DNA from: a virus
IMG/VR virus record: IMGVR_UViG_3300008050_000375
Location: 1 to 21,675 of that record
Reading direction: 5' to 3' (one strand)
Length of the DNA stretch: 21,675 bases
Part shown: piece after piece, positions 2,022 to 21,675 of the stretch
How positions within the stretch are numbered: the stretch's first letter is position 1
How the letters are laid out: the number at the start of each line of letters is the position of its first letter
Program-made: the position numbers and the translations under genes
Notes under the pieces: model-generated
What the model was told of the DNA's origin: nothing
Seen by the model: the letters and a program-made list of their open reading frames with translations, nothing else
Database searches by the model: none

Positions 2022-2741
2022 CTAGCCGAAAAAATCCGAAAGTCCTGACAACACCACCTCTCTTTCAACATTATCTGATGTGGTATATAAAACCTTATGT
2101 TCTACTCTAGGGGATGTTAAAAAGAAATCTAATATTTTTTCAAACTGTTTCTTGGTCATATTATCAACAAATTCTAACATTTCTTCTTTAGGTATAGTAG
2201 ATGAATTAATTAATTCAGACTTTGTTTGTATGGAAACTATACAATCGGAAATTAAATCATAGAAAGTAGAAGGGTCTTCATAATCAATAACACCATCTCT
2301 TTTATCTAAATCATCTAATGTGGGATATCTCATTTTTAGTATGATTTCTCTGCTTATTTTTATTTCTTTTGTGTGTCCTTCTGTCTTTGTTACTTTTATG
2401 TCTGGTATTAATACCTTTACTGGTATATTTTCTTTTGTAAATGGACACACAACCACGGGTTCGATACCTTCCCCCACAGACTTTTCTCTTATTTGTAGAA
2501 ATATATATTCTATATCAAATAGTGGTAATGAGCCTACATCTTCTATATCATCGACACACGATTCTATTATATTCTTTATTGCTCTAATCATGGAAGAAGC
2601 TTCTTCTGACTGTTGAGCAAGAAGAAGTATCTTTTCTTCTTTTACCAAAAAAGGTCTAAATGATTTTTTATCACCAGAAGATGGAAGAACTACTTCATAT
2701 TTTGGAATATCTGACACTAATAAATTTGACAATCTGTTCAT
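2022..2741 (-). CDS. gp26: Baseplate hub assembly protein gp26-like (putative tail assembly chaperone)
   Basis: The 239-residue protein has the pattern typical of gp26 in marine T4-like phages: an N-terminal LPSSGDKKSFRPFLVKEEKIL, a helical stretch with IIESCVDDIEDVGSLPLFD, and then IEYIFLQIREKSVGEGI. The next part, VVCPFTKENIPVKVLIPDI, is a beta-rich segment. The C-terminal half is helical (YPTLDDLDK, EEMLEFVDNMTKKQFEKIL). T4 gp26 is about 208 residues and is needed to assemble the central hub. It is not certain that it stays in the virion. The start is supported by a GAGGT ribosome binding site 7 bases upstream and a TATAAATA promoter just beyond it. The gene ends GAT TTT TTC GGC TAG, carrying the heptamer T TTT TTC in frame. 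A fraction of ribosomes is therefore likely to enter the 68-residue frame. Confidence 0.8.
   Translation of the reverse strand: MNRLSNLLVSDIPKYEVVLPSSGDKKSFRPFLVKEEKILLLAQQSEEASSMIRAIKNIIESCVDDIEDVGSLPLFDIEYIFLQIREKSVGEGIEPVVVCPFTKENIPVKVLIPDIKVTKTEGHTKEIKISREIILKMRYPTLDDLDKRDGVIDYEDPSTFYDLISDCIVSIQTKSELINSSTIPKEEMLEFVDNMTKKQFEKILDFFLTSPRVEHKVLYTTSDNVEREVVLSGLSDFFG
2028..2034 (-). other. Putative programmed -1 ribosomal frameshift site T TTT TTC at the end of gp26
   Basis: Read on the minus strand, the last gp26 codons are GAT TTT TTC GGC TAG. The heptamer T TTT TTC fits X XXY YYZ in the zero frame, so both P- and A-site Phe tRNAs can re-pair with TTT TTT after slipping back one base. The -1 frame then reads CGG CTA GGG CTC AGC CAC ATG, entering the 68-residue frame without a stop. 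Six bases past the heptamer a weak stem, GGCTC (2021-2017) with GAGTC (2008-2004, one G-U pair), could act as a stimulator. A GGCT/AGCC helix also lies beside it. The structure is weak, but the frame and heptamer are clear. Confidence 0.7.
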
Positions 2742-3888: not shown

Positions 3889-4764
3889 ATGCCAAATCCA
3901 TTAATAATAGGCCTTGGGATTGGCCTCGCAGCTAAATTTGTCAAAGACTCGCTTACACCAGACTCCACATCAGAGGTTATCTCGCGATTTAGCGCCGGCA
4001 AGTTGAAATTCCCTTCTGATGGGTTTGGTGGAGTAACGGACCGTGGAATGCAAATTCCAGTTTCTCTTAATTTCAAAGCAGACACCTATAAGAATAAACA
4101 AATGTTCAGAGATAATGCAATTAAAGGGACTCTTGCTGATATAACCCTACCTTTATCAATTAATCTTGTTGATGATACACAAATAAGTTATAATAGAGGC
4201 CAATCAGAAACCACTGGTGGTGTTTGGGATATGACTCCGGGTGGATGGGCAGAAACTTTCAGGAGTTGGTTTGGGGCGAAAACACTTTTATCTGATTTTA
4301 TTGGAACTTCTGCTATGTACGGGCAAAGACCTATGGACGAAAGTGATAATATATTTAAAGGAGCAGAGATGCGGAAGCATGCATATACATGGATTCTTAT
4401 TCCAAAAAATATAACGGAAGCACAAGATGTTGATAAAATTGTTAAGACATTTCAGAGAATGGCATATCCTATGTCTTCTAATGATGAAGTTTATTCTAGA
4501 GTAATTCATCCTCCTATTTGGCAAATTAGTACTTTTGACTATGTTAACAAATTGAACGATGTTTGGGTTATCGACCCATTACCTTCTTTTCTGTCACAGG
4601 TAAATATAAAAACTGCACAGGGTACATTACACCAAACAAGAGGTGGATATCCTGCGGCTACTGCACTATCTTTGACCTTCGTTGAAGTAGAACCTGCGAT
4701 CAATACTGGACCAGAAGGTGGATTACAATCCAGAAGTCAACTTCGTGGTGGTAAGGATGAATGA
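3889..4764 (+). CDS. gp48: Tail tube cap / baseplate protein gp48-like
   Basis: The 291-residue protein has a short hydrophobic N-terminus (PLIIGLGIGLAAKFV) and then a family-like arrangement: LPLSINLVDDTQISYN (about residue 88), a variable Trp/Gly-rich middle (GVWDMTPGGWAETF), and a helix with TEAQDVDKIVKTFQRMAYP. After that come VIHPPIWQI, NDVWVIDPLPSFLSQVN and YPAATALSLTFVEVEPAI. The last block, alternating hydrophobic with 'L.L.F.E.E', is the conserved end of gp48-type proteins and of tube proteins of this fold. T4 gp48 (about 364 residues) sits on gp54 at the top of the baseplate and starts the tail tube. AAGGAG at 3872-3877 supports the start. It heads the long plus-strand baseplate operon. 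gp54, its usual neighbour in T4, is here on the opposite strand. Confidence 0.75.
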   Translation: MPNPLIIGLGIGLAAKFVKDSLTPDSTSEVISRFSAGKLKFPSDGFGGVTDRGMQIPVSLNFKADTYKNKQMFRDNAIKGTLADITLPLSINLVDDTQISYNRGQSETTGGVWDMTPGGWAETFRSWFGAKTLLSDFIGTSAMYGQRPMDESDNIFKGAEMRKHAYTWILIPKNITEAQDVDKIVKTFQRMAYPMSSNDEVYSRVIHPPIWQISTFDYVNKLNDVWVIDPLPSFLSQVNIKTAQGTLHQTRGGYPAATALSLTFVEVEPAINTGPEGGLQSRSQLRGGKDE

Positions 4765-4785: not shown

Positions 4786-5790
4786 ATGTATTTTGAAAAA
4801 ATGGAAAATATTAATTATAGTTTTCCTGGCATACCCGATTTAGAAATGATGGATATTTTTCGTAGAGTAAAATTTACAGATAAGACACTTGAGGAAACCC
4901 AAAACTTTGTAGAAGTATTAGTACCAGAAGGTTCTAGACCCGATGATGTTGCAAGAACGTATTATGGAAGTTCAAGATATTGGTGGTTAGTATTATTTTC
5001 AAATAATATTATTGATGTAAATTCAGAATGGCCCAAATCTCAATCTCAAATAAAATCATTATTTAATAATTTTATAAATGGAGATAGTTATTTTGTATTA
5101 GAGGACTTGAATATTTCTGAGGGTGATATAGTTGTTAAGAGAGATGTAGATGCAACTGGTGGAATTGACATAAACCATTTTGGAGTAGTGGATTCTTATG
5201 ATAGGCTTTTTCACAGAATAAATGTAAAAAGAAAAGGTGGTACTATTGATGAAGGTGCTGAAATTTGTGCATTTGGTTTGGATGACCAGGGGCAGCCGAC
5301 TAATCAAATAACATCTGGTTTTGGGCAAACTGGTTGCTTCAGACAAAATGTGGGTGCTACATCATGTACTGCATTTACTGCACCCGATTCGGATGCTGCA
5401 CCACTGTGTGCAACTGCTGGTGCAACATTTGCAAAGATACAAAAGAAAACTTCTATTAAAGAAGGCGTTTCTAGATTTTCATATCAGAGTGGTGATAGAA
5501 TAAATGAACTGAATCCTTATACTACTGACGGACTAACTCACGACTATTTTCAGTTTCGTAATATGTGTGGATTAACTGGAACTTTGTTATATAAATATAT
5601 GACAGGTAAAGATTTACCAGAGGAAGTTTCTATAATTACTGTTGAAGAAGAAATGGTATATGACAATGATAGAAATAAATTTATTAAATTACTAAATGCA
5701 AATTTAGCAGCTTTGGTTGCTACTGAAATAGAATCTTTATTAGGTGGTAATGTTCCAAGAGGAACTACCAAAATTGTAACATACACATGA
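4786..5790 (+). CDS. gp53: Baseplate wedge protein gp53
   Basis: The N-terminal half carries the gp53/LysM-like signature: TQNFVEVLVPEGSRPDDVAR, TYYGSSRYWWLVLFSNNIID (about residues 65-85) and EWPKS. This matches T4-like gp53, which locks adjacent wedges and is needed for baseplate assembly around the hub. The C-terminus (LPEEVSIITVEEEMVYDNDR, then NKFIKLLNANLAAL) is the usual charged end of the family. At 334 residues it is longer than T4 gp53 (196). The extra length lies mostly in residues ~160-230, which include several cysteines (GFGQTGCFRQNVGATSCTAF) and look like an inserted loop. GGAG lies 10 bases before the ATG. Confidence 0.85.
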   Translation: MYFEKMENINYSFPGIPDLEMMDIFRRVKFTDKTLEETQNFVEVLVPEGSRPDDVARTYYGSSRYWWLVLFSNNIIDVNSEWPKSQSQIKSLFNNFINGDSYFVLEDLNISEGDIVVKRDVDATGGIDINHFGVVDSYDRLFHRINVKRKGGTIDEGAEICAFGLDDQGQPTNQITSGFGQTGCFRQNVGATSCTAFTAPDSDAAPLCATAGATFAKIQKKTSIKEGVSRFSYQSGDRINELNPYTTDGLTHDYFQFRNMCGLTGTLLYKYMTGKDLPEEVSIITVEEEMVYDNDRNKFIKLLNANLAALVATEIESLLGGNVPRGTTKIVTYT

Positions 5791-5811: not shown

Positions 5812-7974
5812 ATGATGGATAAGCAAACACTATCAGACATTAATATAAAAAAAATAGTTATACGAAATAAACGAAGTGAAACAGAACTTCAAATTATACC
5901 TGCACCAACAAAAGGTGGTGCAATAGAAGAACTATTCGTTAGTATGCAAATTAATGAAAATATAATGCGTAACGGTATTATTGGTTCTCTAAAATTTAAA
6001 GAACCAAGTTCTGTTGGTGATTATTTTAATATGACAGGTAATGAATTTGTAGACATAGAAATGGAATCTCCAGAGATTGAAAATTCTGAACACAAATTAA
6101 CCTTCTGTGTGAATGATGTAAGAGCAACAGGTAATGAAGCAACAGAAGCAACATCTGGACCAAGTGCTAGGTATGGTTCCGGGTGGGAAGTTGAATTTGT
6201 GTCTTGTGAAAGTTACATATTAGATTGGGACAATCTAGATTATATGGATGAAGATTTTATTGGACCAATTGTAGGTGATGGTGGTTTAGTAAATGAGTTA
6301 GCAGAAAAATATTTAAATCCTGAGGCTGTAGACGGATTTTCCAACGCTCAAAAACCAATGGACCTTAAAGATACTACACATAACTGGATATGGTTGAAAA
6401 AAAATCAAAGCATGTATCCTTGGGGCAAAGATGTTCATCCACCAAACCTTATGCAACTTATGAATAACCTTGCAGAAAATGCTGTTACGGAAGACTTGGG
6501 TGGTGTAAATTATTTATTTTATGCAGACTTGGGTGGATGGCACTTTAAATCTATTAGACAAATGATTAAAGATGCAAAAGAAAAGGGTGTTCTTTATGGT
6601 GGTGCGCATGGTGGAGCAAACGAATATAGAGTTGCTGATGTAGATGATGATGGTGAAGGGGTTGGTAACAAAAATATTAAATCGATAATAAACTTTAGTG
6701 AGTATGACCATTTAAATGCGTTCAAGTCTGGTGCATATACATCATATTATGAAAGAATAAAACCATCATATGAAGACCCTTATTTTGAATATGTAGATTT
6801 TACGACTGCACATACGCATCCGCTATCAACTAATTGGGGAGGCAGAGAAATTGTTACATATGGTTATCATGAGGATGGGGAAGATGGAAAATGGGGTGAC
6901 CATGAGGATGGGGGAAGGGTAGAAAAATTTAAACTTCTTCCAAATAGTATAGAAACTTCTATTGATGTTAAGAATCCAGTAAACATAGAAAGAAAGTCAG
7001 TAAGAAAACATGATGTAACTGGACTGTATGGTTATTTTGATTCTCCGTATAATTATCATGGAGAAAAGTCTTATGATTTTCTTGGCTCTGCGGCACTAGA
7101 AGGAAAGCAAGGAAAAAGAAATGATAAACTTTGGCAAACAATGTTCGACCAAACAAATCTTGAAGGGGAAATAATAAAAACCATTCAAAAAGATATTAAA
7201 AAACCAATATCCGATAAAATTAAAGAACACCTTCAAGTAATGAATCTTAAAGAAAAGTTTAATGTGTACAGACACTCGATTTGTTGTGATAAACAAACTA
7301 TTAAACCCTTTGTCTTTCTTGCAGTTATTGAAGATGCAAAAAAAGTCACAGAAGATGATAGGGGTGGAATCTACGAATACTCTTGGAGAGAAGTTGAGAT
7401 ATGGCCCAGTGACCATGTGGAAGACAATTTGGGTACAGATATTAGTCCAGAAGGTTCGCCAGTAAAAATTGTTAAACCACCTGAAGGTAAAGGACTAGCA
7501 GGAACATTTAGAGAAAATAATCCCACTTCAGAATCAGAGTGGACAAACCCCGCTTATAACTTGAATGAATTAATGAATGAAATGGTAGGGGTTAATGTTA
7601 ATGTTGGTCCTGGAATTAATGTTGCTGATTTAGAATATAATGATTATCCCGAATCATATCAAATGATGCCAGTCGGTGGGTATTTTCAAGTTCCAGAGGA
7701 TGGTGATATGTTGGTAGACCCATGTGCATTAGAAGATGAAGATGGTAATGGTATAATGGATGGGCCTTGGACTATGAAACACCACATTGTACAGATGTAT
7801 AGAATTCCTAACTACATGCTAGGAGAATTAAATGAAGACGGAGAAATTGTAAAGGGGACAATTGCTCCAAGAGAAGAAGACCCATTGGGTGAACCAGACC
7901 CAACTATTCCAAAAGACATATACTTCTTCGATGTTCCAAATGCACATGATGGACTGTGCGGGTGTCTTTCTTAA
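5812..7974 (+). CDS. Large baseplate hub protein (gp27-like N-terminal part)
   Basis: The first ~110 residues (SDINIKKIVIRNKRSETELQ, then EELFVSMQINENIMRNGIIG, LKFKEPSSVGDYF and GNEFVDIEMESPE) match the opening beta-barrel of marine T4-like hub proteins in the gp27 position: a secondary-structure-rich 'I..I.I.N' strand, then an 'E..F....G.L.I.D...L...P..G.EFV.I' pattern. Residues ~210-245 (NLMQLMNNLAENAV, NYLFYADLGGWHFKSI) resemble the second hub domain. The C-terminus holds Asp/Gly-rich loops and a segment HHIVQMYRIPNYMLGELNED. The hub would form the trimeric centre of the baseplate. At 720 residues it is much longer than T4 gp27 (391). A second ATG at 5815 lies at better spacing from AAGGGTG (5801-5807). 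A 13-bp direct repeat occurs at 6868-6880 and 6901-6913. The usual hub C-terminal motif is not obvious here but appears in the gene at 12176. Confidence 0.62.
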   Translation: MMDKQTLSDINIKKIVIRNKRSETELQIIPAPTKGGAIEELFVSMQINENIMRNGIIGSLKFKEPSSVGDYFNMTGNEFVDIEMESPEIENSEHKLTFCVNDVRATGNEATEATSGPSARYGSGWEVEFVSCESYILDWDNLDYMDEDFIGPIVGDGGLVNELAEKYLNPEAVDGFSNAQKPMDLKDTTHNWIWLKKNQSMYPWGKDVHPPNLMQLMNNLAENAVTEDLGGVNYLFYADLGGWHFKSIRQMIKDAKEKGVLYGGAHGGANEYRVADVDDDGEGVGNKNIKSIINFSEYDHLNAFKSGAYTSYYERIKPSYEDPYFEYVDFTTAHTHPLSTNWGGREIVTYGYHEDGEDGKWGDHEDGGRVEKFKLLPNSIETSIDVKNPVNIERKSVRKHDVTGLYGYFDSPYNYHGEKSYDFLGSAALEGKQGKRNDKLWQTMFDQTNLEGEIIKTIQKDIKKPISDKIKEHLQVMNLKEKFNVYRHSICCDKQTIKPFVFLAVIEDAKKVTEDDRGGIYEYSWREVEIWPSDHVEDNLGTDISPEGSPVKIVKPPEGKGLAGTFRENNPTSESEWTNPAYNLNELMNEMVGVNVNVGPGINVADLEYNDYPESYQMMPVGGYFQVPEDGDMLVDPCALEDEDGNGIMDGPWTMKHHIVQMYRIPNYMLGELNEDGEIVKGTIAPREEDPLGEPDPTIPKDIYFFDVPNAHDGLCGCLS

Positions 7975-7990
7975 TTAGTATACTTATATT

Positions 7991-10900
7991 ATGAGAACCA
8001 TAAAAACATGTTGCTGTTGCGGGGATAAACCTTGTAAAGATTGGGATAACGAATATCGTTATGGTGGTGGTGAAGCGAATTGTCCTATATGTGCGTTGGG
8101 CACAACTACAATTAGTGCAACAGACTTTGAAGAATTTGCTCCATATGAACCCACACGAAATCAAGGTGATGAGGAATGGGACGGACGAGAAGTATTTACC
8201 TTTGGACATAAAGACAATTTACATTTTGGTGATCTGTGTTTTCACCACGACCCTGAAGATGGTTGGGAGTTTTATCCTGAAGAATGTGAGTGGAATGTTT
8301 GTTGGAATGAATACCCAGATTACTTTGGATATCCATTCCCTGTTCCAGAATCTACATTCTATCAATATGATTCTCCTATGGGACTTCTCCCATGGTCACC
8401 ACAAGCATTTACAGATTGGATAGACAATTGGGATGGACCACTATTACCAAAAGGTGATTGCACAATGCACTGTACTCTTGGTAGTGAAGGTAATCTTGGT
8501 TGTCATAAATTGGCATTCGTTGGTGCTATTGGAAAGAACTTTGGTTCTCAACATGCTAATACAGATGGTGCTGGTGAAATGAAGGGTCCATTGTGCGGTT
8601 CTGACATTGTTACTGTTCCACCACCCGAAAGTGATTGGCCTGAAATCCGTGAATGGGTTAGGTCTGGTGGTAAATTAATTGTTATGGGAGAATCCAGTGG
8701 AAGTCCAATGGAAGGAACAGAATGTAAAGAGAAGATAGGATTCTTTAATGGAGATTCAACTTATTATACTGATAGGTGTCTAGACGATTTAAGTGGTGAA
8801 GCACCATTACAACTTGATGGTTTAGAAGTAGCGGAACTATTAAGAAACTTTGCACTGTATTGCGCGCAACAAGAAGATGAAGAAGAAATAGAAGAATTCT
8901 TTAAATTTAGAGATGATGAATATTATGATGAAGAAAGAGATGAAAACTACATCAATACCTTTGAAGCATTTGAATTGGAAGATGATGTAGCAACAACAAT
9001 CTCTTGTTGTCAACGATCAAAAAGACCATTTCTAAAACGAGATTCAGAAGAAGACCCATCAAAATCATTTTCGTTTCATTGTTCTTCGAGTAGTGGACTC
9101 CTTCCAAAAGGAAAAGGTAAAGGACTAGTCGGACACTGTAACGGTGAAGGGTGTACAGTTGTGTGGAAACCTAATGGTGCCGGTGCAGTTGTCGTTGTAT
9201 ATGATTCCAATGTTTGGGGTGCTACCAATTCACAGATTCCAATGAGTTGGTGGGAAAATGAAACTTTACATCCAGAAATTCAACTCGATGCAGAAACATT
9301 AAAACTGAGAGCCTGCAATAGTGATTTCTGGAGATTTATGTGTGAAGATTTTCTTGATGGTGAGATGCCAAATTATTCATGCACAGAGAGTGATAGTTAT
9401 TGGGATAACAAAGAACCAGATAATTATACTTCTGAAAATCCATGTCTTCCAACTGCACCATGTTGTTTACCAAACGAAGTTTGTCTAGACGATGTTACTG
9501 TCTGGGAATGTTTTAAACATGTAGATGAAAATGGAAATAGATTGCCTGGCATTTGGCATGGTCCTTCAGCAGTTCATCCGAGTGGTGTTGGTTCTTGTGA
9601 TTTGACATGTGGAGATATTACTTGCGAACCACAAGAAAAAAAATTATGCTGTTCTTTAGCAGAAGGATGTTCTCAGAGTAGCCTTCAAGGACCAGATTGT
9701 TGTTTGAGTGAAGGGAAAGGATTCGATGGTGGTAATTTAGTATACAAATATGAATGTTGTGAACTTGCAAAAGCTGCCGGATATGAACCATCGGATGTTG
9801 AAGATATGTGGACACTCACTGGTGATGAATATGGTGATAGTGGTGATAGTTGTGATGCTTGTTATGTTATTGGTGCGTGTTGTTATCCATATGGATGTGA
9901 AGAAGTGGTAAGACAACATGTGTGTGAAAAAACCTTTGGCATTTTTCAAGGCCCCAATAGTGTTTGCAATCCCGATCCGTGTGTTGGTGCATGTTGTTGT
10001 TGGGATAGTTTTGAATGTTATGACGATTTTACAGAAGACGATTGTATGAGTGCATGTGGTGAGGATGCTTGGCAGCAAGCAGGATCGGTTTGTGGCGATA
10101 ATGATGTTATTTGTGGTTTTCCAACAGAGGGTGCGTGTTGTTTAGATACAGGCGAATGTACAATACTTACGCCTAAGAATTGTGCGGCGCAGGGTGGTGT
10201 TTTTGATGGTATTGGTTCTTTGTGTGCTGATGTAGATTGCCCTCAACCAGGTGCGTGTTGTTTGAGTGAAGGTGGATGTACATACGGTCTGGAAACATCT
10301 TGCGATGCAGATGCTGGTGATGCTTGGCAGGGAGCGGGATATTCGTGTGGTGATGTAGATTGCCCTGGGGTTGACGTAACTGCATGTTGTATCGATGATG
10401 GGGAAAATGCAGGCTGTGAAAACTGTCAAGAACTAACCGATACACAATGTGACGCCGAGGGAGGAATAAGTGACCCAAACAACATGTGTGCTGATAACCC
10501 CTGCAATACAAGTGGATGTGTGGGCGGTGCGTGTTGTGTCAATAACTCTCTAGGAGAGTGTGGTGCGTGGGGAGATTGTTGTTGTGTAGATGATGTAACA
10601 ACAGAAGAATGTTACTCAATGGGAGTGCAGGACCCTGGTGGTACTCAACCCAATACATTTCATGATGCCACGCAGTGTGATGAAGTTGATTGTTGTGGTT
10701 CATGTTGTTGTATAGATGGTGGTGAAAGTTTCTGTTTAAGTACCGAGTATATGTGGGGTGAATGGAGTTGTGTAGTACTTCCCCACGAAGAATGTAACGG
10801 AACTCCATTCTGGAATCCTTGCGACAATTGTTTTTGTGAGGATGTGTCTGGTGGTGAAGAAATACATTGTGAATCATTTGGTTCTTGTTGTATTTCTGAA

Positions 10901-12148
10901 TGTTTTGATGGGGACATGCCCGTCAGTTGTATAGGATATTGTGTAAATGTTAAAAACGAACAAGAATGTGTTGATTTAGAAACCGCAACAAACACAATAT
11001 ATTATAATGAAGAACAAATGTGCGATGAAGAAGATATAGAAAGTCCAATGTGTAGACCTGGATATTGTTGTTACAATGATGGAAACTGTAAAGACTGCTC
11101 ATTTGAAAATGAATGTACGGTTGATTTGGCAGGTGATTGGACTGCGTATAGTGAAAATTGTACAGAAGACGAGCCAGAAGACACTTGCTATGACACAGAT
11201 GGTACTATATGCGACCCAGATGCAGAAGGTGGATGTTGTATAGATGGAACTTGTCATGATGATCACACAGAGAAATCGTGTGGCGCTTTGTTTGGTGTTT
11301 GGCTTGATGGTGAAATTTGTTTGGATGACGACACAGATGAATATCAATGTGACCCAAACAAAGGGACATGTTGCAACAGTGATTTTAGTTGTTTATGTTC
11401 AGGGGCATGGTATTGTGTACATGATTTCTGCAATGAATGGGGTGGGATGTGGTTCGGATATGTAGTTGATCAATGCAATGATTTTTGTGGGGCAGACGCC
11501 ACGCTTGGAGCATGTTGTCTTAATGATTGTGGTTACTGTTTAGAGATAAGCAGCACGGCTTGTGGTCAATACGCTGGAAGTCAATTTCAAGGTGACAATA
11601 CATTTTGTGGTATAGATGGTCCTTGTGCTTGGAAAGGTGCGTGTTGCACCCATTACGCGCCATCAGGGGGGTCTGCGTGTGTAAATATGGGCAACAGCCA
11701 TGGTGGCATTGTATATGATGGGACGGCATCATCCTGCGCGGAATTTAGCGAGGGAACTTCAAATGCCTATGTTTGGCTGCCGTATTGGTTTGGACCTTGT
11801 GAAACCTGTTCTGGTCATTCTTGCAATGTTGTATGTTGCGCGATTGATTGGGATGGTGATGGTTGGTGTGATTGGGATGGTTGGTGTGGTGATGGTTGTA
11901 TGGTGTCTACATTAAATGAATGCATCAACAATTGCAATTATGGTAGCAACTTGCCAGATTGGGTTTGGGTAGATGTTCCTCCCCACTACACTTGTTCGGA
12001 CTGCTATTGTTCCCAGCTGGGCACACTTGACGGAACACCTGATGCCGGAACACCAGAAATTCCACAGCAAACTTGTCCACAAGAATGCATTGATGCAGGA
12101 TGTGAATGTAATTGTTTAAACACAAGAAATGGTATAGTATGTCTATAA
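7991..12148 (+). CDS. Giant cysteine-rich structural/adhesin-like protein (1385 aa)
   Basis: This single unbroken frame has about 150 cysteines by hand count, roughly 11 percent. Three parts are visible. Residues 1-170 hold CCCC at 7-10 and many Trp, Tyr and acidic residues. Residues ~170-460 resemble a class I glutamine-amidotransferase-like or DUF4350-like Rossmann fold: a strand KLAFVGAIG, the helix-strand pair EIREWVRSGGKLIVMGE, GAVVVVYDSNVWG, and a closing NSDFWRFMCEDFL, with an acidic insertion at 294-332. Residues ~485-1385 are Cys-rich with about thirteen GxCC-type repeats (first GACC at 628, last at 1216, spacing near 40-48). The core pattern is GACC-x5-GxC-x(n)-C-x(n)-GxGxxC-x3-DCP. 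Similar GACC repeats are known to me from long extracellular proteins of planctomycetes and relatives. No membrane segment is visible. The location between two hub-like genes suggests a baseplate or tail-tip component. There is no Shine-Dalgarno before the ATG. Exact function is unknown. Confidence 0.8.
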   Translation: MRTIKTCCCCGDKPCKDWDNEYRYGGGEANCPICALGTTTISATDFEEFAPYEPTRNQGDEEWDGREVFTFGHKDNLHFGDLCFHHDPEDGWEFYPEECEWNVCWNEYPDYFGYPFPVPESTFYQYDSPMGLLPWSPQAFTDWIDNWDGPLLPKGDCTMHCTLGSEGNLGCHKLAFVGAIGKNFGSQHANTDGAGEMKGPLCGSDIVTVPPPESDWPEIREWVRSGGKLIVMGESSGSPMEGTECKEKIGFFNGDSTYYTDRCLDDLSGEAPLQLDGLEVAELLRNFALYCAQQEDEEEIEEFFKFRDDEYYDEERDENYINTFEAFELEDDVATTISCCQRSKRPFLKRDSEEDPSKSFSFHCSSSSGLLPKGKGKGLVGHCNGEGCTVVWKPNGAGAVVVVYDSNVWGATNSQIPMSWWENETLHPEIQLDAETLKLRACNSDFWRFMCEDFLDGEMPNYSCTESDSYWDNKEPDNYTSENPCLPTAPCCLPNEVCLDDVTVWECFKHVDENGNRLPGIWHGPSAVHPSGVGSCDLTCGDITCEPQEKKLCCSLAEGCSQSSLQGPDCCLSEGKGFDGGNLVYKYECCELAKAAGYEPSDVEDMWTLTGDEYGDSGDSCDACYVIGACCYPYGCEEVVRQHVCEKTFGIFQGPNSVCNPDPCVGACCCWDSFECYDDFTEDDCMSACGEDAWQQAGSVCGDNDVICGFPTEGACCLDTGECTILTPKNCAAQGGVFDGIGSLCADVDCPQPGACCLSEGGCTYGLETSCDADAGDAWQGAGYSCGDVDCPGVDVTACCIDDGENAGCENCQELTDTQCDAEGGISDPNNMCADNPCNTSGCVGGACCVNNSLGECGAWGDCCCVDDVTTEECYSMGVQDPGGTQPNTFHDATQCDEVDCCGSCCCIDGGESFCLSTEYMWGEWSCVVLPHEECNGTPFWNPCDNCFCEDVSGGEEIHCESFGSCCISECFDGDMPVSCIGYCVNVKNEQECVDLETATNTIYYNEEQMCDEEDIESPMCRPGYCCYNDGNCKDCSFENECTVDLAGDWTAYSENCTEDEPEDTCYDTDGTICDPDAEGGCCIDGTCHDDHTEKSCGALFGVWLDGEICLDDDTDEYQCDPNKGTCCNSDFSCLCSGAWYCVHDFCNEWGGMWFGYVVDQCNDFCGADATLGACCLNDCGYCLEISSTACGQYAGSQFQGDNTFCGIDGPCAWKGACCTHYAPSGGSACVNMGNSHGGIVYDGTASSCAEFSEGTSNAYVWLPYWFGPCETCSGHSCNVVCCAIDWDGDGWCDWDGWCGDGCMVSTLNECINNCNYGSNLPDWVWVDVPPHYTCSDCYCSQLGTLDGTPDAGTPEIPQQTCPQECIDAGCECNCLNTRNGIVCL
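9872..11670 (+). repeat. Degenerate GxCC cysteine-repeat array within the 1385-aa gene
   Basis: Recurring units begin with Gly-x-Cys-Cys. Examples by residue are GACC at 628, 666, 714, 754 and 1216, with GSCC, GYCC, GGCC and GTCC variants between. At DNA level the exact string ggtgcgtgttgt begins at 9872, and ggtgcgtgttg recurs at 10130 and 10250. Units are 38-48 residues apart where I measured them. This is a protein-level repeat, not a CRISPR or a site for DNA recombination as far as can be seen. Confidence 0.75.
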
Positions 12149-12175: not shown

Positions 12176-13006
12176 ATGGCAGAACATGACTTTCTAGTAA
12201 AACTCACTCACTTTGCTAACACCGAATGGCCTAGTGTCAAGTTGGGTCATTCTGTTGGTGCATTTGATGATAAATATCCGTGTGCTAATCCAGAAGGTCC
12301 TGTGGACAATTCTGGATGTAAAGACAGTGACCCAAATAATCCTCTTTGTATGTGCCCATGTCAAGAATTAAATCCCTTTAAAGAGTCTCACTTGATTGAT
12401 TTTCCGTGGTATGTTGATATGGTTACTGGTTTTGGTGCTGGTGCTGGTCTTTTAAATTTAATACTTGGTAACGAAGACCACACATTAGAACCCACAAAAG
12501 AACAAATAAGAGAATCTGTAGAATCTATAAAAGAATGTGATTTAATAGAAGGTAACAAAAAATTGGGTAAATCTTGGATGGGATGTTTATGGAAAGACCA
12601 AAACCACCCAAGCAGTTGTGACTGCCCTTGTGTTGGAGAAAATTTTAAAAAGTATATTGAATATACAAGAACCAGTGCAACATATTGGGACACTCCTAAC
12701 GAAACTCCTTTATGGCGAGACGCTCAAATGGCTCTGATAAATTCTCAACAGGCTTCAATTATGTTAAGTGGAGATTTGAGTTTGCGACCAGGAGAAATAA
12801 TCAACATAACAAATAAAAATATTGATTCGCAAAAAGAAAGAAGAATGGCTGGTAGGTGGTTACTTGCAGAAATTCAGCACAACATGATTAGGGGTGGACA
12901 GCATACGATGCTTTGTCATTTAATCAGAGATAGTAGTCCAATTGACCCCAATGATTCTGAACATTTAGGTTTCTTTGGTGAGATTTGGGACTGGCTTTGG
13001 AATTGA
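12176..13006 (+). CDS. Hub C-terminal-domain-like protein with paired CxCPC motifs (276 aa)
   Basis: Residues ~184-255 read AQMALINSQQASIMLSGD, then LSLRPGEIINI, RRMAGRWLLAEIQHNMIRGG and HTMLCHLIRDSSP. This is the closing pattern of T4/P2-type hub proteins (gp27 or gpD-like: 'G...L..GD.I.V......L.G.YLV..V.H......Y.......RD'). The N-terminal ~160 residues are unlike that and hold two similar cysteine motifs, CMCPC (58-62) and CDCPC (148-152), each followed by an Asn-Pro/Asn-Phe-Lys-like stretch, with further cysteines at 36, 48, 121 and 137. These could bind metal or form disulfides. Together with the 720-residue gene upstream this may be a hub protein split in two, with the cysteine-rich gene between. 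AGGAG precedes the ATG by 6 bases. Confidence 0.6.
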   Translation: MAEHDFLVKLTHFANTEWPSVKLGHSVGAFDDKYPCANPEGPVDNSGCKDSDPNNPLCMCPCQELNPFKESHLIDFPWYVDMVTGFGAGAGLLNLILGNEDHTLEPTKEQIRESVESIKECDLIEGNKKLGKSWMGCLWKDQNHPSSCDCPCVGENFKKYIEYTRTSATYWDTPNETPLWRDAQMALINSQQASIMLSGDLSLRPGEIINITNKNIDSQKERRMAGRWLLAEIQHNMIRGGQHTMLCHLIRDSSPIDPNDSEHLGFFGEIWDWLWN

Positions 13007-13034
13007 TTATTATACATATAAAAAAGGAATGCCA

Positions 13035-13463
13035 ATGCCAATATCCGATTTTCAATTCATAGATTTTGATATAGATTTAAATAAGAATCCGTTCAGCAAT
13101 GACATCTCTGTGGTTGGTGACAGGAATGCAATTAGACAATCTATTATGAATATAGTTCTTACCTCTCCGGGTGAAAAAAGATTCAATGACGATTTTGGCG
13201 TAAGTCTTCGTGATTATTTATTTGAATTGTGGACCCCACACCAATCTAGCATGCTGGAACTGGATATAAAGATAGCAATTGCTAGATTAGAACCCAGAGC
13301 AGTTGTCGATTCTGTTATTTTTGAAGAAGATTCGGATGTTGCAAAACAAGGAAGTTCAGGAATTGCAAATCAATTAAATTTAACAATCAACTACACCATT
13401 CTTAACGGAAGAAAGTCCAAACTAAGAGATACTTTACGGGTAGCATTACAGAAGGTAAGATAA
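13035..13463 (+). CDS. gp25: Baseplate wedge protein gp25 (GPW/gp25 lysozyme-like family)
   Basis: The protein carries the gp25 hallmark: VVGDRNAIRQSIMNIVLTSP, then GEKRFNDDFGVSLRDYLFEL and LELDIKIAIARLEPRAVVDS. It ends with a beta-hairpin region (LNLTINYTILNG). This is the sheath-initiator/wedge protein conserved across contractile injection systems (PF04965). The frame is open from an earlier ATG at 12975, but that would overlap the previous gene by 32 bases. ATGs at 13029 and 13035 follow AAGGA (13024-13028). The second has the better spacing, giving 142 residues starting MPISDFQFIDF, typical of T4-like gp25. The stop is followed after one base by gp6, so translation is likely coupled. Confidence 0.9.
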   Translation: MPISDFQFIDFDIDLNKNPFSNDISVVGDRNAIRQSIMNIVLTSPGEKRFNDDFGVSLRDYLFELWTPHQSSMLELDIKIAIARLEPRAVVDSVIFEEDSDVAKQGSSGIANQLNLTINYTILNGRKSKLRDTLRVALQKVR

Positions 13464-13464
13464 A

Positions 13465-15273
13465 ATGAGCAATGTAAACATTCAACTAGGAAGTCTTGAT
13501 TTTGAATCTATTAAATCCAGTATCATAGACCATCTAAAAACACAAAACGACATTAAAGATTATGAATACACAGGTTCGGCTGCACAAGTTCTTTTAGATA
13601 TGCTTGCATATAATACTTTATATTATGGGTATTATGCAAACATGACTGCTAATGAGATGTTTCTAGATACTGCACAAAAAGAAGAATCTATGGTTTCACT
13701 TGTAAAACCCTTGGGTTATGTGGTGCCTGGAAAAACATCTGCTAAAGGATTAGCATTTGTTAAATCTGGTGCCGAGGGTGGTGGTGGATATGCTGTTCCT
13801 AGATATACAAGATTTACTGGAAATTCTCCTTCTGGATTATTATATAATTTTTACACATTAGAAGATGGTGTTTTGAATGACCAAGGTGAAAACATATTTA
13901 CTATTGTGGAAGGTAAAAGTTTAATAAAAGAAGTTCCATTAATTATAGACGACACAACAAATAAAGGATTCGTTTATGGTTTAGATATAGACATATCCAC
14001 CATTAGGGTGGAAGTATATAATTCGGACCAAAATATTGATGGGAGTGATGTTGGTTGGCAAGAATGGGTTAAGGCAAGCAATACACAATCAGGATTAAAT
14101 CAAACAAGTAAAGTGTATTGGTTGGAAAGAACAGAACTTGGATTCTTTATAGTATTTGGTGGTGGATTTGATTCTTCTTATGGAAATGTAGGGCAAGAAA
14201 TTGCTCCAAATCAACAAATAAGAATTTCATACTTAAAGAGTAGTGGTTCTGTTGGTAATGTTTGTGGTAATTTTACCATTAGAGATATGGAAGACCTTAC
14301 CAGTTATGCTGCAAGTAATGGTTTATCTAGTGGTGGTACAGATAAACCAGATTTAGAAGCAATCAGATTTTTTGCTCCAAAGTGGTTCGCTGCACAAGAC
14401 AGAGCAGTTACTATAGACGATTGTAAAGGCATTCTTTCAGAATCGGGATTTGTAACTGGTGATGAAGACCCCTATTCAGTATTTAATGTGTGGGGCGGAG
14501 AAACGATGACTCCACCAAGATATGGAAGACTTTTTGTTTCTTTGGATACAACAACAGACCCATTTATATCTTCAACCGTATTAAATATTCTAAACGATAA
14601 AACTTGTGTTACTATCATTCCAGAATTTATGAATTTAGAAATATTTGAAGGGGTTGTTTCTGGTCAGTGTATATATGATCCCAATGAAGTAGAACATTCT
14701 CAAGATGTCTTACTGTCGATTGTAAAACAAAATATCATCGATACATATGCACCTAGATTTGAATTAGAAAATTTTAATACTTCTTCTATTTCTAATATAG
14801 TAAATTCTATAGATGAATCTTTTAGAGCTTCTTCTAATGAACTCTCTTTGAAACTTGTAAAACCATGTTCGGTTACTAATTATAAAATAGATAAACAGAG
14901 TTTTAGAAATGTATGCTTGGCCGGTTCTCTTGAAACTGATTATTATACTCCACCAGATTGGGTCTACAACGACCAGCTGATTGGACTTGATGCTGGTACA
15001 CAAATAAAAATACAAACTGTTGGTCCAGTTGACAATAAAGGATTTCAAAAGTTAGAGGCTGTTGATTCTAATGGAAGCACACACATTACTGGTGTTGGAA
15101 AATGGCATCCGTTTACAGGAGAAGTTAATGCAACTAAAAATATATTTTCTGGTAATACTGTTAATTTGAAGGTAAAGCCTGGTGGTATTGGTTCTGATAA
15201 ATTTAATATAAAAGAAAATATGTATTTTTCTAATTTAAATTTTGAGAATTTTTCTTTAGTCGCAAGAAGTTAA
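13465..15273 (+). CDS. gp6: Baseplate wedge protein gp6
   Basis: The N-terminus holds the strongly conserved gp6 block: DFESIKSSIIDHLKTQ, YEYTGSAAQVLLDMLAYNTL, YYGYYANMTANEMFLDTAQK and LVKPLGYVVPGKTSAKG (residues ~10-95). The middle part (a ring of beta-strands, with YLKSSGSVGNVCGNFT near 262, then FFAPKWFAAQDRAVTIDDCK) matches the J-like/gp6 domain that dimerises between wedges. T4 gp6 is 660 residues and this one is 602. gp6 with gp7 and gp53 forms the core bundle and continuous ring of the inner baseplate. It starts one base after the gp25 stop, with GAAGG about 10 bases upstream inside gp25. The two genes form a fixed pair in contractile phages, which supports both calls. Confidence 0.92.
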   Translation: MSNVNIQLGSLDFESIKSSIIDHLKTQNDIKDYEYTGSAAQVLLDMLAYNTLYYGYYANMTANEMFLDTAQKEESMVSLVKPLGYVVPGKTSAKGLAFVKSGAEGGGGYAVPRYTRFTGNSPSGLLYNFYTLEDGVLNDQGENIFTIVEGKSLIKEVPLIIDDTTNKGFVYGLDIDISTIRVEVYNSDQNIDGSDVGWQEWVKASNTQSGLNQTSKVYWLERTELGFFIVFGGGFDSSYGNVGQEIAPNQQIRISYLKSSGSVGNVCGNFTIRDMEDLTSYAASNGLSSGGTDKPDLEAIRFFAPKWFAAQDRAVTIDDCKGILSESGFVTGDEDPYSVFNVWGGETMTPPRYGRLFVSLDTTTDPFISSTVLNILNDKTCVTIIPEFMNLEIFEGVVSGQCIYDPNEVEHSQDVLLSIVKQNIIDTYAPRFELENFNTSSISNIVNSIDESFRASSNELSLKLVKPCSVTNYKIDKQSFRNVCLAGSLETDYYTPPDWVYNDQLIGLDAGTQIKIQTVGPVDNKGFQKLEAVDSNGSTHITGVGKWHPFTGEVNATKNIFSGNTVNLKVKPGGIGSDKFNIKENMYFSNLNFENFSLVARS

Positions 15274-16534: not shown

Positions 16535-18511
16535 ATGGCTAAATCATTAGGAAAAAGAAACGGAACAGCAAGAGGAGTACGAGATTTCCTTCGTTCTCGA
16601 AACCTATCCCTTTGTCTTGGCAGGTCAAATTCGGATATTATAAATAACTCTCCAGAAGGCAACAACGATGCTAATGATAATAGTATGTTTGCACAAAAAA
16701 TTCTCGCCAAAGATATAAAAACAGTTGTACATTTTGGAGCAACCGAAACAAAGTATTGGAAAACTGGTCTAGCACCGCATGCCTATCAGTCTGACGGAAC
16801 TGCTAACGGACAATACCTATTTGTTAGTGGTGGAATTTTGTTTATGTGTGTTGGAACGCCTGGTGTTAAAAACAGAATAGACAAGGATGGTGCTTTGCTT
16901 ACAACAACCAAACCCACCAGAATTGATGGTGGAATAGAAACTACCGCTGACGGAATATCATGGATGGCAATTAATGCTATAGATGGTTTCGACCAGTTGA
17001 GTAATAGATATCAGGAGATTGCACCGTTTGAGCAATTGCAAGAGGAAGTTAATTCAACTACGTCGCTATCAACTAAAGCAAAACAAATATGTGGTGCGGG
17101 GACTGAGGGAAGAACAGGAAATTGTTGTTTGTATTATGGTGAATCTGGATATGACCCCATAGGCGGTAGCACATATGCCGCAGGTCAATTTTATAAATGT
17201 CTATGTTCTAAGTGTTACAGATGTATAGAAATGGCAGAAGCCTTAGACATGAGATATGTGTTTAATAAATTTGACCCATCTGGTTGTACCACTTGTGGAT
17301 GTACAGGATGTGATGGAGAGAATTATCCAACAGATTGTGGTCCTTGTGGATGTACAATTGATTGGAACGAGAACAGTTATTATACTAGTGTTATTAATGA
17401 TAAACATGTAACACCAACAACTTCTGCACTAGGAAGAAATGCAAGAATAATTAATGAACAAGAAGTAAATCTTTCTGGTGCTGTATTATCTGCAAGTATT
17501 GATTTGAGTAGTATACCAATCGAAGCAAGGACGATTGCCTATGAAACTTATGATACTAAGATAAAAGATGGAACATTCTATCTTCCTATAAGAGCAGGTA
17601 GTCTTAAAGAAGAAGCATATATTCCAATTTCTGTGGTGAGGGACGATGTTAGTGGATTGCATTACATTGATGGTTTTGAAGAACCAAAAGAAAGAGGTTC
17701 TGGATATACATCAGCAATAGTTGATACAGTTGTATGGGGACAAATATTTCCCAATTGGTCTGTAGGTGTTAATGTTAATGATATAGTTAAAATCACCACA
17801 ACACCTATTGGGGGCATGGCAAAACATCTTGATGAAATTCTGGAACTTTCTACATTATTCCATGTAGTAGTAAATGCAAATGATATTTCAGATACTTTTA
17901 AGGCAGTTTCAACAGGCACAACTAATACACCAAAAGGATTTGATTATTATGCTATACAAGAATTGTATGACACTGCTGGTGCGCCAATATATAGTGGTTT
18001 GGGCCCAAACGCTACGAATTTCAAATCTCTAGTACCTTTGATTACAGTAAGTCCAGTAACTGGGATTTTTTCACCAAGTGTGGAGGGACTTGCCGAATTA
18101 CCAAAAGCAAATGAGGTAATGCACAACAGTGAACGACTAGTAACAACAGGGAACAAAAACATATACACCGACACCAGTTTGAATAATATTGTTGCATATG
18201 ATTCAGAAAGAAGAAGCGGTACGGAAGTTAGAGTTCCACTTCAAACTTCTTATGCAAAGGATTTGGTAGGTAAAACCCTTTGTGTCGTTACAAATATTGA
18301 TGACACTGCCGCAAAATTGTCAATGAATGTAGAGAGTGTATATTATAATCCAAAAAGTAATGGCAATGATGATATAGATTTCACCAAAACAAAAACACTA
18401 TTCAGACAGGCAATGACATTGAATTTTGATATTGTATCAACACAAAGTGTAGTGAGTTTAGAAATTCTGTATGGACAAGACCAAGGCATCGGCAAGGTAA
18501 CAACATCTTAG
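16535..18511 (+). CDS. gp8: Baseplate wedge protein gp8-like with a cysteine-rich insertion
   Basis: The N-terminal part fits gp8-like wedge proteins: IKTVVHFGATETKYWKTG, then a strand NGQYLFVSGGILFMCVGTPG, a TTTKPTRIDGGIETTADGIS stretch and WMAINAIDG, comparable to the '.YKC.....P.....DGY.WKYLY.I' pattern of gp8. The C-terminal ~90 residues (RSGTEVRVPLQTSYAKDL, ESVYYNP, FRQAMTLNFDIVSTQSVVSL) are beta-rich. At 658 residues it is about twice T4 gp8 (334), closer to marine relatives. Residues 186-273 hold 14 cysteines (KCLCSKCYRC at 221-230, CTTCGCTGC at 251-259, CGPCGC at 268-273), which looks like an inserted metal-binding or disulfide-rich module. AGGA lies 7 bases before the ATG. Gene order after gp25 and gp6 supports the wedge assignment, but gp7 or another wedge part remains possible. 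Confidence 0.6.
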   Translation: MAKSLGKRNGTARGVRDFLRSRNLSLCLGRSNSDIINNSPEGNNDANDNSMFAQKILAKDIKTVVHFGATETKYWKTGLAPHAYQSDGTANGQYLFVSGGILFMCVGTPGVKNRIDKDGALLTTTKPTRIDGGIETTADGISWMAINAIDGFDQLSNRYQEIAPFEQLQEEVNSTTSLSTKAKQICGAGTEGRTGNCCLYYGESGYDPIGGSTYAAGQFYKCLCSKCYRCIEMAEALDMRYVFNKFDPSGCTTCGCTGCDGENYPTDCGPCGCTIDWNENSYYTSVINDKHVTPTTSALGRNARIINEQEVNLSGAVLSASIDLSSIPIEARTIAYETYDTKIKDGTFYLPIRAGSLKEEAYIPISVVRDDVSGLHYIDGFEEPKERGSGYTSAIVDTVVWGQIFPNWSVGVNVNDIVKITTTPIGGMAKHLDEILELSTLFHVVVNANDISDTFKAVSTGTTNTPKGFDYYAIQELYDTAGAPIYSGLGPNATNFKSLVPLITVSPVTGIFSPSVEGLAELPKANEVMHNSERLVTTGNKNIYTDTSLNNIVAYDSERRSGTEVRVPLQTSYAKDLVGKTLCVVTNIDDTAAKLSMNVESVYYNPKSNGNDDIDFTKTKTLFRQAMTLNFDIVSTQSVVSLEILYGQDQGIGKVTTS

Positions 18512-19581: not shown

Positions 19582-21675
19582 ATGGCAAATGTAGACGACA
19601 ATTATTACGACATACCGTATCTAACAGGTGACGACACCTTTTTGGATTGGGTTAATCATTACAACAATTATACTGTTGAGAAATTAAATAATATACGAAT
19701 TTTTAACGGTGTTTCAGGTGATGGTGTTGGGTTAACCCTCGGCACTACTGCTGATGGCACAACTTGGGGCGGTGTTTTTAGAGTTGATTTAAATGATACA
19801 ATAACCAAAGGTATTACATTTAGCGAAAGTGTTACTATTCAAGGAACTTTAAATCTTGATGGAGATTTTGTACTAGGTGGAATTAAATCTAGATATGGTC
19901 ATTCAGCAGGATTAACTGGAATTTCTGGTGGATTTACTGTTGGACAACCAATTAGAATGTCTACTGTTGATGGTGATGCTTCTGGACTAGATTATGGTTA
20001 TGGATTCACTCTCGCACAAGCAAGTGGTACTACTGGTGCAGAAGTTTATGGTGTTGTTTCTAAAGTAGTTTTAGGAAGTGCCCCATATACAGAAGATAAC
20101 ACATATTTTGAAGTCACTACAAATGGTGTAATTCAAGGCGACTTTACTGAAGCAAATGTTACAGGGTATGGTCTTAGTGCAGGTGAAGTATATTTCTTAG
20201 ACCCAGGCGTAACAGGTGGACTTACTACAATCGAACCAGTAATTTCAGGATATGTTAGTAAACCCGTTTTGATGGGTATTACTTCTGATAAGGGATTGGT
20301 TCTTAACTATAGAGGTCAATACTTACAGGGTACAGGTACTGGTGGTACTGGTGGAATAGACAATAATAGAAGTATTGTTCCGATAGGTAATGATGTTGCT
20401 TTTGAAGTTGGTCATGTTGTTGGTTATGATGAAGACGAAGCATTGAGTGATTCAAACGGTTGGTTTATATGTAACGGCGATACTAAGTCGAATTGGGACA
20501 AAGCAGTCGGTATATGCACTCAAGGAAACTTTAATGTTGGTGGGTGGCATATCGAATTGGCACACACTGGATGGGTAGATAATTTCCCATCAAATAGTCA
20601 AACTGGTTTGTTGTATGTGGACCAGTCAAATGGAAAACTAACCAACACTTATCCTGGTGAGGGTGATGTTAAAAAGATATTTGCTATAGTTTGGGACATA
20701 GGCAGCGATATTCGTGGTATTGTTCTTAATCAATTACCAGACACATCATATTCTTCTGACGGGTCGGTTGGTTCGTGGGCGCATCGTTCTTCAACTGCTG
20801 GTGGTGTTACATTCGGTAGTGCAATTAATCCAAACATGATGATTAACGGTGGGTTTGATGTATGGCAAAGAGATATCGGTAAGAGCAGTTCTTATGTAAA
20901 TACTGGAAGTACATACTTTGCAGACCGTTGGGTAAGGGTTGATGGTATTACTTCTGGCAATCAAGGAACATGGAACATTGAAAGACAAACTTTCGACACA
21001 AACCAAACAGAAGTATATGGTCAACCAAAATATTATTGTTCTATAAAGAATGATATTACATCTGGTACAACATTAGATTATGTTCATGTTGAAAATAGAA
21101 TAGAAGATGTTCGTACTGCAAGAAATGAAACAGTATCATTATCGTTCTGGTCTAAGTGTGGAGTTACTGGTTCAACAATGGATGTTTCTGTTACACAATG
21201 GGATGGTAGTACTTCAACGACAACATATCCTTCTACGGTTTCTTTGGGAACAGTGTGGAACAAATATGAAGTAGCATTCCAAGTTCCAAATATAACTACA
21301 ACTCCATCAGGAAAACATTATCTTGGTGTAGGGTTTAGAACAGAAAAATTATCAGGCACAACTTTAGATTTAGCAAAAGTTAAATTGGAAAGGGGATTAG
21401 TTGCTACAAATAATCCATGGACCGAGGAAAATGAAGAACACAATAAGTGTAAGAGATTCTATCAAAGAAGTTATAATATGGATGAATCTACACATACAGT
21501 AACTATGTTGGATAATGATACTCCAAGCATAAGTTCTGTAGATTTTACAATCACACCAGAGAAAGATTATTTTTATAAATTCCCAGAACCACTAAGAGAT
21601 ACTCCATCGATTACATTCTATTCGCCTGCTAGTGGATATACAGGTGATGTATATAATCGAACTGCGAAAAAAGAT
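19582..21675 (+). CDS. Tail fibre protein (3' end outside window)
   Basis: The frame is open from the ATG at 19582 to the window end (698 codons) and no stop is seen. Residues 1-105 begin MANVDDNYYDIPYLTGDDTF and have a baseplate-attachment look followed by the strand-rich SVTIQGTLNLDGDF. Residues ~280-330 include GNDVAFEVGHVVGY and SNGWFICNGDT, a weak tail-collar-like motif. From about residue 415 the protein shows a very common fibre module: NPNMMINGGFDVWQRD, YFADRWVRV, then sandwich-like strands with VSLSFWSKCG and KLERGLVATNNPWTE. It continues to EEHNKCKRFYQRSYN (618-632), equal to the 'E..LCQRYYQ' motif after this module in many phage fibres. Such modules are thought to bind surface glycans. 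The C-terminal tip, and hence receptor specificity, lies beyond the window. Confidence 0.85.
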   Translation, partial: MANVDDNYYDIPYLTGDDTFLDWVNHYNNYTVEKLNNIRIFNGVSGDGVGLTLGTTADGTTWGGVFRVDLNDTITKGITFSESVTIQGTLNLDGDFVLGGIKSRYGHSAGLTGISGGFTVGQPIRMSTVDGDASGLDYGYGFTLAQASGTTGAEVYGVVSKVVLGSAPYTEDNTYFEVTTNGVIQGDFTEANVTGYGLSAGEVYFLDPGVTGGLTTIEPVISGYVSKPVLMGITSDKGLVLNYRGQYLQGTGTGGTGGIDNNRSIVPIGNDVAFEVGHVVGYDEDEALSDSNGWFICNGDTKSNWDKAVGICTQGNFNVGGWHIELAHTGWVDNFPSNSQTGLLYVDQSNGKLTNTYPGEGDVKKIFAIVWDIGSDIRGIVLNQLPDTSYSSDGSVGSWAHRSSTAGGVTFGSAINPNMMINGGFDVWQRDIGKSSSYVNTGSTYFADRWVRVDGITSGNQGTWNIERQTFDTNQTEVYGQPKYYCSIKNDITSGTTLDYVHVENRIEDVRTARNETVSLSFWSKCGVTGSTMDVSVTQWDGSTSTTTYPSTVSLGTVWNKYEVAFQVPNITTTPSGKHYLGVGFRTEKLSGTTLDLAKVKLERGLVATNNPWTEENEEHNKCKRFYQRSYNMDESTHTVTMLDNDTPSISSVDFTITPEKDYFYKFPEPLRDTPSITFYSPASGYTGDVYNRTAKKD

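Follow-up and report, generated by a model that had tools for sequence, protein, structure and literature searches.

The window analysed here, a 21,675-base virus record (IMG/VR record IMGVR_UViG_3300008050_000375, positions 1 to 21,675), is assigned by its gene content to an uncultured T4-like phage. Its open reading frame (ORF) at positions 7991-12148 is a real, selected gene and encodes a large protein extremely rich in cysteine. The gene is located inside the gene for the baseplate hub, in a slot between the two parts of a split gp27-like protein, and some of the repeats in its product are, according to profile matches, kin of GACC units found in bacterial proteins. The slot protein probably forms an exposed and robust portion of the tail tip.

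The initial annotation had described a protein of 1385 residues with about 150 cysteines, which is borne out with an exact count of 156. Its estimate of 11 percent cysteine over about 900 residues was right about the extreme share, but the figure was too low: 29 cysteines are found in residues 1-500 and 127 in residues 501-1385, where they make up 14%. Of the stop-to-stop frames in the window with 100 or more amino acids, the one ranking second has a cysteine share of 6.7% over 104 residues. The protein is acidic (253 aspartate and glutamate vs 53 lysine and arginine residues). Close orthologues are encoded at the loci L001, L002 and L008, all with an intact frame, and more distant ones occupy the same slot at L090, L092, L093, L097, L100, L101, L105, L106 and other loci. 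The ratio of nonsynonymous to synonymous substitution rates against L001, L002 and L008 is 0.43, 0.34 and 0.33, respectively, for residues 1-490, and 0.43, 0.52 and 0.49 for residues 491-1340. Where the repeats could be aligned, 111 of 118 (L001), 111 of 117 (L002) and 111 of 116 (L008) cysteines are kept, while other aligned repeat residues are kept at 44–46%. Since the orthologues retain the repeat cysteines but less than half of the other residues, the gene is considered real. A chance frame or an artefact was ruled out on the basis of the preserved frame, the kept cysteines and the much lower cysteine share of the next-ranking frame. Residues 1101-1340 showed the lowest conservation of all genes compared in each of the three comparisons (38–40% identity), whereas the two hub parts were 76–86% identical; the gp25-like gene entered this comparison from position 13032 onwards, and the fibre gene at 19582, which has no counterpart, lies outside of it. 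The protein had no match in Pfam, PHROGs or NCBIfam, and Pfam also gave nothing for the N-terminal part and two relatives. A sequence search of the PDB was likewise negative, the profile A3 reaching E-values of 0.44 and 0.59 at best, and nothing related to the protein turned up among annotated phages.

The initial annotation had regarded the product as a phage virion protein. The phage structural context was confirmed, and the place can be refined to the baseplate hub. The ORFs upstream and downstream of the cysteine-rich gene match different parts of phrog_350. This split was found in all nine records of the cysteine-rich lineage, and phrog_350 is a single ORF of 443–445 amino acids in both control records. 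The downstream part, referred to as hub C, matched phrog_350 in six of six members. For the upstream part (hub N, ORF 5812-7974), a T4 gp27 fold is predicted: the top Foldseek matches of its AlphaFold2 model are T4 gp27 (2z6b_D, 2.0e-6; three gp27 chains at 2.0e-6 to 3.5e-6), and a VIA comparison with 1k28_D gave a Z-score of 13.7 and a root-mean-square deviation of 3.6 Å over 224 residues, with a mean predicted local distance difference test (pLDDT) value of just 51 for the model. By sequence profile, T4 gp27 was below significance (E-values 0.15 and 0.10), so that the fold search was required. Profile comparison with the phrog_350 protein of Prochlorococcus phage P-SSM7 gave modest probabilities of 50 and 60 for the two hub parts, which were placed at opposite ends of that protein. 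PDB profile searches with the hub parts gave no match, and neither hub neighbour had a match in annotated phages. Cysteines are conserved in both hub parts, and the doubled C..C..CxCPC clusters of hub C are almost invariant in 16 sequences, whichever slot protein is present. Because phrog_350 is split around the cysteine-rich gene and the upstream part has the predicted gp27 fold, the gene is placed inside the hub gene.

A search of IMG/VR with hub C yielded 232 confirmed relatives, of which 80 loci were kept, several of them overlapping pieces of one contig. The locus is cut before the slot in 24 cases, which were left unclassified. A slot protein with a CCC start and the GDCTMHC motif is encoded at 19 loci, and a long CCC-start protein lacking GDCTMHC at nine. 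The hidden Markov model (HMM) of the N-terminal region was run on seven of these nine and matched five (L234, L236, L242, L253 and L263), but not L254 and L265; L266 and L268 resemble L265 in length and start. Six loci harbor a short CCC-start slot protein of 264–324 amino acids. Four of these (L240, L247, L248 and L251) contain a DxSGSM motif, and one short protein has a CobT_C match at 0.043, which suggests that they might be vWA-like; a PDB search with one of them gave nothing useful. At nine loci (L260, L262, L269, L275, L279, L280, L283, L292 and L297) the entire hub is encoded on one giant ORF of 1457–2016 amino acids. Both hub HMMs match all nine, with the two parts far apart, and since both parts are thus carried on one chain, the slot lies within the hub. 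The other loci comprise eight with different two-ORF arrangements, in which hub N lacks the HDGxC end, one (L277) with a 750-residue slot protein containing 27 cysteines, and four discussed below. The occupant of the slot is therefore optional and changeable. Fused GACC units in the hub ORFs of 975–1029 amino acids at L273, L274, L278 and L287 were not accepted, as the HMM of the bacterial units gave no match at E<0.01; GACC-like motifs are visible in the ORFs of L278 and L287.

When bacterial genomes were scanned with a single GACC unit, 149 stretches were confirmed and 80 of them retained; the pattern searched for is biased toward units of this type. Planctomycetota taxa are named in the titles of 70 of these 80 loci (counted by eye, with Kuenenia included as a member of this phylum). 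Exactly six cysteines are present in 325 of the 387 units extracted, and an HMM was built from 120 of them. With this HMM, three units of the window protein were detected at E<1e-3 and two more at 0.0065–0.019, and none in the reversed and 20 shuffled versions of the protein. Ten other slot proteins contain one to eight such units each. The likeness that the initial annotation had drawn to long extracellular proteins of some bacteria is supported; the bacterial proteins concerned are apparently secreted. The regularity claimed for the GxCC repeats applies to two or three successive units, while the others vary in length and cysteine number. In L107b and L106, an alternative short module of approximately CxxDxDCPxxxCCxxGxC was recognised by eye.

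Three options had been put forward for the cysteines, namely metal binding, disulfides formed after lysis, or a rigid adhesin. CxxC motifs are depleted in residues 491-1340 (8 observed vs 18.0 expected) and histidine is scarce (14 of 850 residues), which fits disulfides better than metal sites and proves neither. A protein that coordinates zinc or iron intracellularly with its cysteines is considered very improbable: the number of cysteines would allow metal binding and short CxC and CxCPC motifs occur in hub C, but the CxxC and histidine counts speak against it, as does the finding that the cellular kin of the units occur in proteins which, on visual inspection, appear to be secreted. Disulfides after lysis fit best, because CxxC is depleted, histidine is scarce, the cellular units mostly contain six cysteines and phage Milano provides a precedent; a rigid tail-tip adhesin is plausible, and metal binding retains the small probability given above.

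The N-terminal region of the window protein starts with CCCC, and its GDCTMHC, GGKL and NDFW motifs are common to 14 sequences (alignment A6). A stand-alone ORF of 491–498 amino acids encodes this part at L095, L096, L098 and L107; a second ORF of 373–549 amino acids with 16–18% cysteine follows, and this arrangement marks the domain boundary. An AlphaFold2 model of the region (predicted template modelling score 0.67) gave weak structural matches for residues ~30-460, with VIA Z-scores of up to 7.1; the best E-value in the viral fold library BFVD was 0.21. The VIA matches include PurL, ThuA-like, GH42 and IFT52 chains, and many of the weak matches are class I glutamine-amidotransferase-like domains; the PurL glutaminase, ThuA-like, GH42 middle and IFT52 N-terminal domains presumably share one fold. 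Residues 1-490 might possibly adopt this glutamine-amidotransferase-like (GATase1-like) fold, a structural resemblance that comes with no PDB sequence match and does not imply a function. As regards a catalytic cysteine in the nucleophile elbow, an invariant cysteine directly after the GGKL strand was not seen in alignment A6 when read by eye.

Taken together, we consider it fairly probable that the slot protein is a virion component of the hub; after release, its modules would be closed by disulfides, with the variable loops pointing toward the host. From the sequence we infer its presence in virions, its disulfides and its role, be it as adhesin, armour or gp5 substitute. It would belong to the structure of a T4-type baseplate hub that has been remodelled, and its CCC N-terminus, together with cysteine clusters in the two hub parts, may contribute to its docking. 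A chain of small cysteine-stabilised modules would run out from the N-terminal domain. Virion assembly would take place in the cytoplasm, which is reducing; upon release, the modules would be oxidised to disulfides, resulting in a tough tail-tip scaffold with loops that are free to vary. Most likely this scaffold would either act as an adhesin in contact with the host surface or shield the tip. In favour of this reading are the split hub, the gp27-like fold predicted for its upstream part, the single-ORF hubs of relatives, the retention of cysteines amid changing residues, the low conservation of residues 1101-1340, the three GACC matches, the CxxC depletion, the additional cysteine-rich fibre candidates in seven of seven relatives and the virion disulfide networks of phages Milano and 7-7-1.

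Several observations weigh against this interpretation. The lineage is known here from sequence alone. The slot proteins L101, L105, L107b and L096b have no units detected by the bacterial HMM, and the majority of the repeat units in the window protein are below significance with it. The divergence of the repeats is perhaps inflated by misalignment, and the fold match of the N-terminal region is weak (best Foldseek E-value 0.02, Z below 8, mean pLDDT 54). At L282, L286, L289 and L298 (four of the 80 loci), hub N is followed directly by hub C with no slot protein, which is therefore not essential to every such hub. A role outside the virion, as a tail-assembly helper or a released blocker of the host surface encoded in the tail cluster, would suit a long, variable and acidic protein, but appears hardly likely, given that the gene is strictly confined to its place within the hub gene and that relatives have single-ORF hubs.

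A T4-type gp5 spike was not found in the 21 hub-lineage records searched, which may be fragments. The gp5 protein of P-SSM7 as query gave no match in the nine records of the cysteine-rich lineage, phrog_694 (gp5) none in these nine and 12 further hub-lineage records, and phrog_430 none in 13 hub-lineage records, while both controls matched in each case. PF06714 was absent from the nine records and matched just one of the two controls. PF04717 and PF06715 matched neither control and are uninformative, as is PAAR, for which no match was obtained in 21 records including two controls. The cysteine-rich slot protein itself has no match to gp5 families in Pfam, PHROGs or NCBIfam. In P-SSM7, three small genes separate the phrog_350 gene from gp5, which lies downstream, and in the two controls the gp5 match starts within ~250 bases of the phrog_350 match. 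The wedge protein gp6 was detected in 21 of 21 hub-lineage records, which shows that records and method serve well for the baseplate region; in the two controls it was not detected. One of the gp6 matches (G007:C1:24466-26241) contains an internal TAG.

These results would be in line with a loss of the T4-type spike and lysozyme, the slot protein or another hub insertion replacing gp5 as the piercing or sealing tip under the gp27-like trimer. This is possible but rather unlikely, as all records may be fragments (the largest has 157 kb), the searches might overlook a diverged gp5 given the poor control matches of three Pfam families, and some members of the lineage have no slot protein or only the short one.

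Further cysteine-rich ORFs are encoded in the lineage. The L008 contig (123 kb) harbors five of them past the fibre region (L205:1-15675 and L204:16723-20000, with one ORF extending across the border between L204 and L205). Collagen-like GPTG starts are present in four of the five. One has 1922 amino acids and 249 cysteines, and one contains a stretch that seems vWA-like by eye. Cysteine-rich, mostly collagen-like fibre candidates were present in all seven records read further (G001, G002 and G004 to G008). The largest of these ORFs, at L218:1335-10571 (G007), encodes 3078 amino acids with 359 cysteines, 40 [GAST]xCC motifs and collagen-like stretches. One fibre candidate was searched for in annotated phages and had no match. 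The sole tRNA gene on the L008 contig is a tRNA-Cys (L207:1549-1622), and no tRNA gene was found at the 21 other loci scanned. Several ORFs on L202-L203 of the same contig resemble sugar-nucleotide and glycosyl-transfer enzymes by eye.

The coordinates of the features in the window are compiled in Table 1. Relatives of gp32, gp26, tail tube, gp4, gp48, gp53, gp25 and gp6 were recognised. The gp26-like protein is at most 47% identical to gp26 of P-SSM7. The C-terminal cysteine-rich tail of the slot protein is almost identical in L001, L002 and L008 and still recognisable in L090. An ORF of 658 amino acids at 16535-18511 has 17 cysteines, many of them in clustered CxxC/CxC motifs, and no family match.

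Table 1. Features around and within the cysteine-rich gene, with positions in the window.
Feature	Position	Strand	Remarks
gp26-like baseplate hub protein	2022..2741	-	PF12322 2.6e-57
gp48-like tail-tube cap	3889..4764	+	phrog_230 3.5e-17; PF11091 1.9e-7
gp53-like baseplate wedge protein	4786..5790	+	phrog_232 2.1e-25; PF11246 1.3e-6
gp27-like hub, N-terminal part	5812..7974	+	720 aa; ends NAHDGLCGCLS; phrog_350 3.5e-16
Cysteine-rich hub-slot protein	7991..12148	+	complete from ATG to stop codon; 1385 aa with 156 Cys (11.3%)
N-terminal region, residues 1-490	7991..9460	+	CCC(C) start and GDCTMHC...GGKL...NDFW domain
Cysteine-rich repeat region, residues 491-1340	9461..12010	+	conserved Cys, fast-changing loops
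GACC unit, residues 628-664	9872..9982	+	bacterial-unit HMM 31.0 bits, 1.5e-8
GACC unit, residues 714-753	10130..10249	+	bacterial-unit HMM 45.0 bits, 6.3e-13
GACC unit, residues 754-792	10250..10366	+	bacterial-unit HMM 26.1 bits, 4.9e-7
C-terminal cysteine-rich tail, residues 1358-1385 and stop	12062..12148	+	conserved
Hub, C-terminal part	12176..13006	+	276 aa; two C..C..CxCPC clusters; phrog_350 positions 348-434, 2.7e-9
gp25-like baseplate wedge protein	12975..13463	+	PF04965 1e-12
gp6-like baseplate wedge protein	13465..15273	+	phrog_219 1.9e-73

No paper on such a phage was found in open-licence PMC text. What appears to be new is a T4-type hub with an inserted giant cysteine-repeat protein, while disulfide-linked tails are already known. 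If the proposed reading is true, phages beyond the Agrobacterium group complete their tails by oxidation after lysis as well, and do so to an extreme extent. T4-type hubs would then tolerate a split and the insertion of a giant repeat protein, and might perhaps work without gp5, which raises the question of the envelope-piercing part in these phages. The link between an uncultured phage group and a repeat type concentrated in Planctomycetota might serve as a clue to the host. In a wider and speculative picture, which we regard as unlikely as a whole, a widespread uncultured T4-like branch would have given up the gp5 spike and would build its tail tip and fibres from cysteine modules of planctomycete kin, with a redox-dependent disulfide skeleton and variable loops facing a possibly planctomycete host.

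In comparison with the gp27-gp5 hub and spike of T4, the lineage shares the predicted gp27 fold of the upstream hub part, but here the hub gene is split, a large cysteine-rich gene is inserted and gp5 was not found. The bacterial GACC-repeat proteins have in common with the slot protein the GACC-x-C-x-C-x-G-x-C-x-C unit, usually with six cysteines; they are found mainly in Planctomycetota and a few other bacteria, outside of any phage hub context, and many look secreted by eye, whereas the window protein has only three clear units and no obvious signal sequence (a predictor was not run).

The closest precedent appears to be the disulfide-linked tail of the Agrobacterium phage Milano. Disulfide networks are reported to be present in tail, baseplate and receptor-binding proteins of Milano, some tail disulfides apparently need to be reduced for contraction, and contraction in vitro required guanidine plus dithiothreitol (PMC10811340). 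A comparable redox lock, formed by cysteine cross-links between hub, slot protein and fibres that would have to be opened by reduction at the host surface before the tail contracts, would be compatible with a disulfide-closed hub component. The requirement in Milano, the conserved cysteines in both hub parts and the many cysteines in the fibre candidates would agree with such a lock; it is nevertheless quite unlikely, since many of the cysteines are found in units resembling self-contained six-cysteine modules, which suggests bonds within domains. For phage 7-7-1, a capsid disulfide network and a proteome with 1.45% cysteine are reported (PMC12796354). Both Agrobacterium phages resemble the present lineage in a contractile tail and, as proposed here, in virion disulfides (PMC10811340, PMC12796354); their cysteines are located in ordinary structural proteins, whereas here a single hub-slot protein, consisting largely of repeats, contains 11% cysteine.

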